In this document: positions 22,862-25,544 of the stretch, piece by piece | Layout of the letters: every line of letters begins with the position of its first letter | How positions within the stretch are numbered: position 1 is the first letter of the stretch | Source: Halobiforma lacisalsi AJ5 | Lineage (GTDB): Archaea; Halobacteriota; Halobacteria; Halobacteriales; Natrialbaceae | Assembly: GCF_000226975.2 (NCBI RefSeq) | Contig: NZ_CP019285.1 | Span: forward strand, 3,410,001-3,474,000 | Length of the DNA stretch: 64,000 nt | Direction of reading: 5' to 3' | The notes under the pieces: model-generated | Told to the model about the DNA's origin: nothing | Database searches by the model: none | The model's input: only the letters and a program-made list of their open reading frames with translations | Program-made: the position numbers and the translations under genes

Positions 22862-24880
22862 TCAGCCGGCGAGAGCGCCGATCGCGGCTCCCGGTTCGGT
22901 TACTGCTTCGTCCTCGTCGAGGTCGTCACCGTCCTCGACGAAGAGATAGATGTCCGCCTGTTCGACCACGATGCTGATCTGCTCGTCGGTATCGTGTTCG
23001 TCGTCTTCCTCGAGGCCGTCGTCCTCGTTCATGTCGTCTTCGTCATCGAGGCCATCATCGTCGTCGAGCCCATCCTCATCCTCGAGGCCGTCTTCCCCGT
23101 TGACCGGCTCGCCAACGGCGTCGGGTTCTTCGACGTACACGAAGATCGTCGCCTGTTCGAAGATGACGTCGAGTTGTTCGTCCTCGAGGCCGTCGGTTTC
23201 CTCGAATTCCTCGCCGTCCTCGTCGTTCAGTTCGTCGTCATCGAGGCTGTCGTCTTCATCGTCGAGGCCGTCGTCCTCGTTCATGTCGTCCTCGTCATCG
23301 AGGCCGTCGTCTTCATCGTCGAGTCCGTCTTCCTCGTCGACTGGCTCCTCAGTCGCTCCTTCGTCGTCGATATCCTCGGCGTCGACGACGATGAAGATCG
23401 TCGCGCTATCGACGGACACCCCGACGCTATCGTCCTGCTGAGCGGCGGTTCCGTCGCCGTCCTCGAGTAGTTCGGCACCTTCGAGCACCGCGAAGACGGT
23501 GGCGTCGCTGACAGTTACTTCGGTGTCAGTGTCGTCCTCGACGTCTTCGGGTTCTTCTTCGTCGATTTCGTCGGGTTCGTCGTCTTCGAGCTCATCCGAT
23601 TCATCGTCTTCGATCCCGTCCGATTCGTCATCCTCGGCGTCTTCGGGCTCTTCTTCGTCGATTTGGTCCGACTCGTCGTCCTGGACGTCATCTAGGCCAT
23701 CGATATCGCCGTTGAGCGCCGTCACGGTAGCCTGTTCGATCGATACGTCGAGTCCGCCCTCGGTAACCTCGAGTCCGGTCTCGTCCTCGAGTTCGTCCTC
23801 GACTGCGCCGTTCATTCCGTCGTCATTCGACTCGTCGTTCGTGTCGAGTTCGTCGTCATCCAACTCGTCGTCGTGCATCTCGTCGTCATCCAACTCGTCG
23901 TCATCGTTGAGTTCGTCATCATCGTCGCTCTCGTCCTCGTCGTCGAGACCATCGTTATCATCGACACCGTCGGTATCGTCCTCGAGGTCGCCGTCGTCGG
24001 CGTCGTCGAGTCCGTCGTCGGCGTCGATGTCGTTTACGTCGTCGACCGGCATCCCGTCGCCGTGGTCGACGTACGTGAATATCGTCGCCTGTTCGATGAC
24101 GACGTCGATCGCGATCTCTTCGGGAATCTCGTCGACGTCCTCTTCAGGCTCCTCGTCGATGTCCTCATCCGGTTCGTCGACCGGTTCGTCATCGAGTTCG
24201 TCTTCGGGTTCCTCGTCTAGTTCGTCTTCATCGTCGAGGTCTTCGTCGGGCGCTTCGTCGACGGCTTCGACGGTAACGTCACCGTCGTCAGTCACCGCCT
24301 CACCATCCGGCGTCAGGTACGGGATGTCCGCTTCACCCGGCTCCAGATCCTCGTTTCCGAGGAAGTCGTACTGCTGGTTGTCGTTCGTGTCACGGTGCGG
24401 CATCGCGAACAGCGTCTCGGACTCCTCGAGCGGTTCGTCGAGCGTGATCTCGATGTTCTCGTGGGTCCCCGCCTCGAGGTACTCCGACACGCCGATGACG
24501 CTGTCGAACGGCGCGTCGGGGTCGTCGAGCAGGAGGCGACTGTCGTGGATCACCACGAAGCCGCCGTTCGCCATCGTCACTTCGTCGACGACGACCGTGT
24601 CGCCGTCAGTAGCCTGATCCTCGAAGGTTACGTACGCGCCTTGTTGGCCGTCGTCTTCAGGTTCGTCCGGTTCGAGTTCTACCTCCTCCTCATCGTCGTC
24701 ATCGTTTTCCTCTTCGTCTTCGTCTTGTGTTTGTACAGCCTCTTCTCCTGCGTCGACGTCGGTATCGTGCTCGTCGACTGCTGCCGGTGCGCCGGCACCG
24801 GCTGCGGCGACCATCGCCCCGCTCGAGCACACCATCATCAACGCGGTGAGTACTACGAGCGCCTGGTTGCGTGCGTTCAT
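22862..24880 (-). CDS. Exported hyper-acidic surface protein with six beta-strand repeats
   Basis: 672 residues from ATG 24880. Residues 1-33 form a Sec-type signal peptide (MNARNQALVVLTALMM, Ala-rich end). Residues about 80-205 resemble the haloarchaeal DUF7282 domain (AYVTFEDQATDGDTVVVDE, HRDTNDN). After that, six short hydrophobic repeats of the type V-x-EQATIFVYV (about 258-272, 377-391, 453-467, 486-500, 570-584, 635-649) are separated by runs of Asp and Glu 25-110 residues long. No C-terminal membrane anchor is visible. It is probably a secreted or cell-surface protein; the acidic linkers might bind cations. A 7-residue leader ORF precedes it. Confidence 0.75.
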   Translation of the reverse strand: MNARNQALVVLTALMMVCSSGAMVAAAGAGAPAAVDEHDTDVDAGEEAVQTQDEDEEENDDDDEEEVELEPDEPEDDGQQGAYVTFEDQATDGDTVVVDEVTMANGGFVVIHDSRLLLDDPDAPFDSVIGVSEYLEAGTHENIEITLDEPLEESETLFAMPHRDTNDNQQYDFLGNEDLEPGEADIPYLTPDGEAVTDDGDVTVEAVDEAPDEDLDDEDELDEEPEDELDDEPVDEPDEDIDEEPEEDVDEIPEEIAIDVVIEQATIFTYVDHGDGMPVDDVNDIDADDGLDDADDGDLEDDTDGVDDNDGLDDEDESDDDDELNDDDELDDDEMHDDELDDDELDTNDESNDDGMNGAVEDELEDETGLEVTEGGLDVSIEQATVTALNGDIDGLDDVQDDESDQIDEEEPEDAEDDESDGIEDDESDELEDDEPDEIDEEEPEDVEDDTDTEVTVSDATVFAVLEGAELLEDGDGTAAQQDDSVGVSVDSATIFIVVDAEDIDDEGATEEPVDEEDGLDDEDDGLDDEDDMNEDDGLDDEDDSLDDDELNDEDGEEFEETDGLEDEQLDVIFEQATIFVYVEEPDAVGEPVNGEDGLEDEDGLDDDDGLDDEDDMNEDDGLEEDDEHDTDEQISIVVEQADIYLFVEDGDDLDEDEAVTEPGAAIGALAG

Positions 24881-24900
24881 GTTAACTGCCGTAAAGGCAT
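24877..24900 (-). CDS. 7-residue leader ORF before the acidic surface protein
   Basis: Reads MPLRQLT and its TGA overlaps ATG 24880 (ATGA). A TTTATGC TATA-like box at 24921-24927 stands 20 bases before its ATG, so this unit uses an ordinary TATA, not the ATAACAAAG element. Confidence 0.3.
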   Translation of the reverse strand: MPLRQLT

Positions 24901-25046
24901 GCGAAGGTCGTCGTATCGCTGCATAAACCGCTACAACGCTTTCGGGTGGAAACACCGGACTAGGCCGACCAAGCTGACGTTCGCGGGCTCCCACCGCGTC
25001 CGTTCGATTCGGAAACCCGGTGTTTTGTCGCCGACTCGGGTCCTAA

Positions 25047-25544
25047 CTATTCGTTTTGCGGCTGTTCGCGGGACTTCGAGGCAGTGGGTTCGTGGTCCGG
25101 TAAACAGACGAGATTCTCCCTGCCCAGCCGAAGCTTCGTGACCTTGCCTTCCTCCTCGAGTTCGGCCAGTAAACGGCTGACTTTCGCCTTCGACCAGTCG
25201 ACGGAGTCGACGATCCGTGATTGCTTCATGCGGCCGCCGTTCTCGTTGATCAGTTGCCGAACCCGTTCCCGATCGGTTATGAACTCCTCTTGATCCGGTT
25301 CCCGGTCGTTCCCGATGGACTCCCCCTTTTCGAGCCGATTGCGGATCGCGAGAAACCCCCCGAGCAAGGCGAGCCCGATGATCCCGACAGCCGCGGCGAC
25401 GTGTGGCCCCCCGCCGAGCTGGAGGATCGGTTCCCGGCCGTACGATACCGGCCCGTAGGAACCGAACTCGATCCCGACGGAGAATTCGCTCGACGAGAGA
25501 GTGAGAGCGACGATACTACCCGAATGTCGGAAATGGCGTCTCAT
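25047..25544 (-). CDS. Membrane-anchored MarR/IclR-like HTH protein
   Basis: 165 residues. One hydrophobic segment at about 48-66 precedes a C-terminal winged helix (DRERVRQLINENGGRMKQSRIVDSV, SKAKVSRLLAELEEEGKVTKL). The N-terminal 45 residues would be outside the cell. The arrangement resembles haloarchaeal membrane HTH regulators (DUF7345-type). The AT-rich stretch 25605-25650 upstream likely holds its promoter. It is downstream of nothing on its strand for 200 bases. Confidence 0.72.
   Translation of the reverse strand: MRRHFRHSGSIVALTLSSSEFSVGIEFGSYGPVSYGREPILQLGGGPHVAAAVGIIGLALLGGFLAIRNRLEKGESIGNDREPDQEEFITDRERVRQLINENGGRMKQSRIVDSVDWSKAKVSRLLAELEEEGKVTKLRLGRENLVCLPDHEPTASKSREQPQNE

Follow-up and report, generated by a model that had tools for sequence, protein, structure and literature searches.

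Which part of a secreted, extremely acidic haloarchaeal protein is held constant, and what might that part form? The question is raised by one gene in Halobiforma lacisalsi AJ5, within the window, a stretch of 64,000 nucleotides. An earlier note on this DNA described six short hydrophobic repeats, here called beads, set in acidic linkers. The reading frame runs from an ATG at 24880 down to 22862 on the minus strand and contains the following features.

22862..24880, minus strand: secreted hyperacidic six-bead protein, whole gene (open reading frame and translation; stop in the coordinates, 672 aa)
24785..24880, minus strand: signal peptide region, aa 1-32 (Sec-like, by eye from the sequence)
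24272..24637, minus strand: DUF7282 domain (PF23951), aa 82-203 (Pfam E 1.7e-40)
24068..24109, minus strand: bead 1, IDVVIEQATIFTYV, aa 258-271 (this and the other beads by matrix and motif matches)
23711..23752, minus strand: bead 2, LDVSIEQATVTALN, aa 377-390; atypical, without the aromatic tail
23483..23524, minus strand: bead 3, TEVTVSDATVFAVL, aa 453-466
23384..23425, minus strand: bead 4, VGVSVDSATIFIVV, aa 486-499
23132..23173, minus strand: bead 5, LDVIFEQATIFVYV, aa 570-583
22937..22978, minus strand: bead 6, ISIVVEQADIYLFV, aa 635-648

Layout and composition of the protein

The protein opens with a Sec-like signal peptide and a short acidic stretch, followed by DUF7282 and then about 470 hyperacidic residues that hold the six beads. 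The DUF7282 domain, a feature that the earlier note missed, matches the PF23951 profile over its full length (1-112 of 112) with 138.1 bits against a curated cut-off of 27. The Sec-like signal peptide suggests a position at the cell surface; no membrane anchor and no PGF-CTERM-like anchor is visible. PGF-CTERM and S-layer glycoproteins carry a C-terminal PGF motif and a transmembrane anchor. We do not count the window protein among them, as it matches no NCBIfam model and its C-terminus reads ...AVTEPGAAIGALAG.

Over 430 residues, the linkers are 58.6% Asp/Glu and lack Lys and Arg altogether; the beads are 13% Asp/Glu, the mature chain as a whole has two Lys/Arg, and at pH 7 the computed charge comes to -292. 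Background Asp/Glu content, taken from twenty-eight open reading frames of the window chosen by a crude composition rule, has a median of 19% and peaks at 30%. The linkers thus lie well above that maximum, bearing out the view that this acidity exceeds the ordinary haloarchaeal bias.

Each bead has fourteen residues with the consensus [IL]-[DE]-V-T-I-E-Q-A-T-I-F-V-V-V, and the six motifs quoted in the earlier note begin at residues 262, 381, 457, 490, 574 and 639. A loose regular expression returned exactly these six in residues 205-672, while 10,000 shuffles gave a maximum of one and a mean of 0.002. The spacing is as irregular as had been described (up to about 110 residues), with 105, 62, 19, 70 and 51 residues between successive 14-mers. 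Across 211 distinct beads the residue pattern is h-p-h-p-h-p | p-h-p-h-aromatic-h-h-h, as would suit a strand interrupted at E-Q. The bead matches no family in Pfam, NCBIfam or the PDB, and we take the best hit of its profile among PDB sequences (E 0.37) as chance. With its signal peptide, several beads above the shuffle threshold and acidic linkers, the window protein belongs to the six-bead family that we propose.

Several known systems resemble this protein in part. DUF7282 proteins are secreted haloarchaeal proteins, and by eye some in other haloarchaea carry several copies of the domain; the likeness lies in the full-length DUF7282. The definition of that domain includes neither a bead nor a hyperacidic linker, and some bead proteins do without it. 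Two acidic secreted proteins with pentad arrays (G000 C1:330-342 kb) share the signal peptide, acidic linkers and (V)T(I/V)E-N/Q/D-L/A units. They differ in having pentad runs and no separate 14-residue beads with an aromatic tail, and the bead profile scores them no better than E 1.2-1.9. Their genes are adjacent (L197, G000 C1:330123-342123; VTVENVTIEELNVEE) and are possibly related to the bead-like units. A long DUF7282 paralogue in the same genome (L002) has V-x-V-E-Q-x-Q repeats ahead of its domain. The Pfam pentapeptide-repeat profile matched neither the window protein nor the relatives that were scanned.

Two ideas about the linkers were tried for the window protein and rejected. Thrombospondin type-3 calcium repeats are arrays of DxDxDGxxDxxD loops; residues 205-672 hold one loose match, with no Pfam TSP_3 match. 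Among the relatives, the linkers of one Natrarchaeobius protein (L093) hold nine loose matches against a shuffle maximum of two, the only clear enrichment. Glycosylated linkers were also considered: the window protein has no N-x-S/T sequon, whereas many relatives are rich in them, although their counts are inflated by tandem repeats, for which shuffles are no proper control.

Bead number and order among orthologues

The closest record is from Halobiforma haloterrestris (L012; now Natronobacterium, family Natrialbaceae), with 95% identity over DUF7282. Of the 125 Natrialbaceae genomes, 92 contain DUF7282 relatives at E<=1e-28. Our sample comprised eighty fetched regions and L012 (81 loci), which we compared by the gene upstream.

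25047..25544, minus strand: DUF7343 (PF24034) winged-helix gene with a membrane segment (by eye), upstream of the bead gene (Pfam E 1.8e-28)

The product of this gene is possibly a regulator. In 77 of the 81 loci a DUF7343 homologue precedes the gene in the same orientation, and we therefore treat these 77 as orthologues at one locus. The other four (L103, L130, L131, L132) show no synteny and were left out of the ortholog counts.

Beads were counted with a position-specific matrix built from twenty-four seeds; the threshold is the 99th percentile of the top scores, one from each shuffled protein. The matrix replaced a count of hydrophobic islands that missed bead 2 in many proteins. The six beads of the window protein score 19-35 bits against a threshold of 10.3; 638 of 639 control reading frames had no match, and none had two. 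By threshold, exactly six beads are present in 16 of 78 DUF7282 proteins (the window's included), and this becomes 18 of 78 once a sub-threshold third bead is entered by eye in two Natrialba proteins (L109, L111). The remaining proteins have seven beads (two proteins), four (three), three (eighteen), two (twenty-five), one (eleven) or none (one, L125, which is cut by a contig end). These counts retain L061 and L125, both cut by contig ends, and the short L117.

The six-bead proteins come from eight genera: Natronobacterium/Halobiforma, Halopiger, Natrarchaeobius, Natrialba, g4, g18, g19 and g20. We grouped the two seven-bead proteins with this set, using the first six beads of each. Beads were compared in their matrix registers, as a full-protein MAFFT alignment misaligns them across genera. 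With one representative for each of the eight genera, beads of the same index are more alike than other pairs (32.8 vs 26.1), a difference reached in 0 of 5000 permutations. The atypical bead without an aromatic tail is usually the second, in most three-bead proteins too; the g18 protein is an exception. The earlier note had named a lack of conservation in bead number or spacing as evidence against its proposal. Number and order are conserved in these eight genera with DUF7282, and six beads are also found in two genera without it; spacing is not conserved, and other lineages carry fewer beads.

Linker length between beads spans 7 to 210 residues, and linker chemistry varies from D/E/N runs to EEPVEEP, TETDTET and sequon-rich DNETD. 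Sequons and the CARDB domain likewise vary freely among homologues. A CARDB-like domain, as in CARDB and Ig-like surface proteins, is present in 53 of the 78 DUF7282 proteins (PF07705 in L024), as called with a family-made profile that replaced a crude regular expression. The window protein has no Pfam match to CARDB (PF07705), and the family-made profile finds the domain in none of the five Natronobacterium/Halobiforma proteins.

Four proteins from g13 and Natrarchaeobius (L065, L093, L102, L104) have a reversed order of beads, CARDB and then DUF7282; modules have therefore been shuffled at one locus. In a g16 protein (L101) a block of two beads plus linker is duplicated, making four beads, so block duplication does occur. 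On the tree, bead number changes four times when scored as six or more against fewer, and thirteen times with four states, the direction not being settled. For these counts two truncated rows were removed, four-bead rows were placed with two, and three rows were set to three by eye.

Comparison with L012 separates the parts of the protein. None of the first 35 residues differs (0/35), and a similar opening is found in most of the homologues listed. Among the 84 bead residues one differs between the two proteins, against 63 of the 426 in linkers; L012 has 65 residues with no partner in the window protein, and the four unpartnered residues of the latter all lie in linkers. Linker dS is unreliable in this pair because the repeats align ambiguously.

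The tail could instead serve, largely passively, as an acidic brush or spacer keeping DUF7282 off the cell, with the beads as pentad-repeat remnants of little function. The linkers do resemble the drift of tandem repeats, and two beads are fused into a pentad array in some relatives. Between the window gene and L012, however, the beads have changed less than either the linkers or DUF7282, and we consider a passive brush quite improbable.

Position-specific bead sequences and a usually atypical second bead would also suit docking motifs that act separately along a disordered chain, each binding a partner such as an S-layer protein, a secreted enzyme or a cell-envelope glycan. The number of beads would then set the number of partners, and that number does change between lineages. 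Among the conserved neighbours tested, though, there is no partner gene, most being predicted regulators, and hydrophobic 14-mers would be unusual as exposed motifs at high salt. We regard docking motifs as unlikely.

Bead proteins without DUF7282 and their upstream elements

We ran a 14-column bead profile on 195 genomes of the order. At E<=0.05 it matched 21 of those 195, every one Natrialbaceae; within that family, 72 of 125 genomes, from 23 of 29 genera, contain a match to the bead profile. In the window's own genome the six beads of the window protein are the sole matches below E 1. The earlier note had proposed a search for bead-linker proteins elsewhere, and they turn out to occur across Natrialbaceae, including proteins that have beads only. 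Neither DUF7282 nor CARDB was found in any of the thirty-one bead-only reading frames (L197 included). The seven bead-only proteins tested contain no Pfam or NCBIfam domain, giving only sub-cutoff Pfam matches that are mostly low-complexity.

In g9 and g28 (two genomes each), the bead-only protein sits at the same syntenic locus and has six beads above threshold. The remaining bead-only genes lie at other loci. Most of those in g19, g12, g25 and g5 have common flanks, with a 503-residue reading frame on one side and two more reading frames on the other, which we take to be pckA, cutA and rplK. For bead counts we used thirty reading frames, dropping L197 and keeping L187 (cut by a contig end), L177 (a 91-residue frame) and L196 (without its N-terminus). 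Six beads are present in 10 of the 30 by threshold and in 20 of the 30 with one or two weak beads entered by eye, additions that bias the count towards six. Seven others have five beads; three beads occur in two, one of them truncated at a contig end, and the last is a fragment.

Since DUF7282 is lost while six beads stay, the constant core is the bead set and not the annotated domain. This core is not universal, as other lineages have seven, five, three, two or one bead. The persistence of beads in proteins without DUF7282 is a further point against a passive spacer for that domain.

Cysteine is the very last residue in 12 of the 30 bead-only proteins (L179-L186, L189, L170, L174, L178), and three end in C-x-C. 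Most of these have no further cysteine after the first bead. The terminal cysteine suggests disulfide pairing or lipid attachment.

Two elements precede the window gene.

24887..24899, minus strand: palindrome TGCCTTTACGGCA directly before the ATG; a stem, with variants among orthologues
24923..24943, minus strand: conserved promoter-like element GAAAGCGTTGTAGCGGTTTAT, beginning 63 bases before the ATG, its GTTTAT end 42 bases before the ATG

Of 75 upstream regions at this locus, 58 contain the promoter-like element, as do 18 of 26 upstream regions of bead-only genes, those at other loci included; its background over the fetched DNA is about 0.004 per 120 bases. A stem lies within 40 bases of the start in 70 of the 75 regions, against 4.3 expected by shuffling. 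Three Natrialba proteins (L109, L111, L112), for which the regular expression gave no start, were left out of these analyses. Because bead genes at different loci have the element in common, gene and promoter have probably moved or been duplicated together. We also considered a wider regulon and rejected it: the element has five matches in the window's genome (three for a pattern control), and the other four precede no bead protein.

What the beads may form

An AlphaFold model built with fifteen sequences places a strand at all six beads, where the mean pLDDT of 10-residue blocks is about 31-59. The whole-chain mean is 48.7, and DUF7282 is the only well-modelled part. Together with the residue pattern, this low-confidence model agrees with the original description of the beads as hydrophobic, beta-strand-like segments. 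In the AlphaFold model of a two-bead Natrinema relative the CARDB region is confident, and the beads show no strand. A PDB fold search with the AlphaFold model returned mostly Ig-like domains (best E 0.006) and nothing at E<=0.001, so DUF7282 can be called 'Ig-like' at most; against PDB sequences its best E is 0.47.

Our favoured reading, to which we give a probability of roughly 0.4, is that the beads are strands of a single beta-structure with hyperacidic loops, rather than independent stickers of a polymer. We infer both that the beads are strands and that they pack within one chain. The functional core would consist of six short beta-strand segments, linked through hyperacidic loops that are probably disordered, and the six beads of one chain would converge into one compact beta-structure, whether sheet, sandwich or small barrel. 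The acidic loops would project as a highly charged, salt-compatible brush, probably glycosylated in some species. Optional additions to this core would be DUF7282 and the Ig-like CARDB module of other genera.

The main argument for a single structure is that bead count and order are conserved while linkers vary freely. Where the count stays fixed and the spacers change freely, a defined structure is at least as good an explanation as an open-ended polymer. The main argument against it is the variable count in other lineages. Syntenic orthologues with one, two or three beads (11, 25 and 18 of 78) indicate that six are not needed in every lineage, and five beads are found in seven bead-only proteins. 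The two beads of most Natrinema, moreover, overlap every ten residues, unlike two separate strands of a hairpin. Lineages with fewer beads could perhaps rebuild a six-strand unit as dimers, trimers or hexamers, the number per chain usually being a divisor of six (6, 3, 2, 1). Counts of four, five and seven (three, seven and two proteins) weigh against a strict rule of this kind, and we give little credence to a split beta-fold of this sort, in which hyperacidic loops of nearly any length would separate six strand-beads.

The earlier note had named a cation-responsive surface polymer as one possibility. Beads would pair between molecules as beta-sheet stickers, while the acidic linkers would space them and sense cations, the result being an extracellular gel or coat. 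Short hydrophobic strand-like segments do alternate with long charged spacers, the linkers vary as freely as spacers would, and the C-terminal cysteine of the 12 bead-only relatives could cross-link chains. A condensing extracellular surface protein is also known from anammox biofilm (PMC7482068); it is surface-exposed, with beta-rich and disordered parts, and serves as a model of how such a protein could work. A polymer of stickers has no obvious need for exactly six beads in a fixed order with the atypical one usually at position 2, however, and the mature part of the window protein contains no cysteine. We therefore hold such a polymer to be somewhat unlikely. Our literature search, which covered few subscription papers, found no publication on DUF7282, on bead strings, on DUF7343/7344/7345 or on this protein family.

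Conserved beads with changing linkers suggest an undescribed beta-structure strung on disordered loops. Beads of fixed number and order in free linkers amount to a natural experiment that sets strand segments, which must be conserved, against charge-rich loops, which need not be, in a recognisable, unannotated family present in the majority of genera of a major haloarchaeal family. The bead proteins would also offer a test of how extracellular proteins fold or assemble close to salt saturation. Should the beads prove to form a structure, its fold would be one whose loops can be longer than 200 residues.
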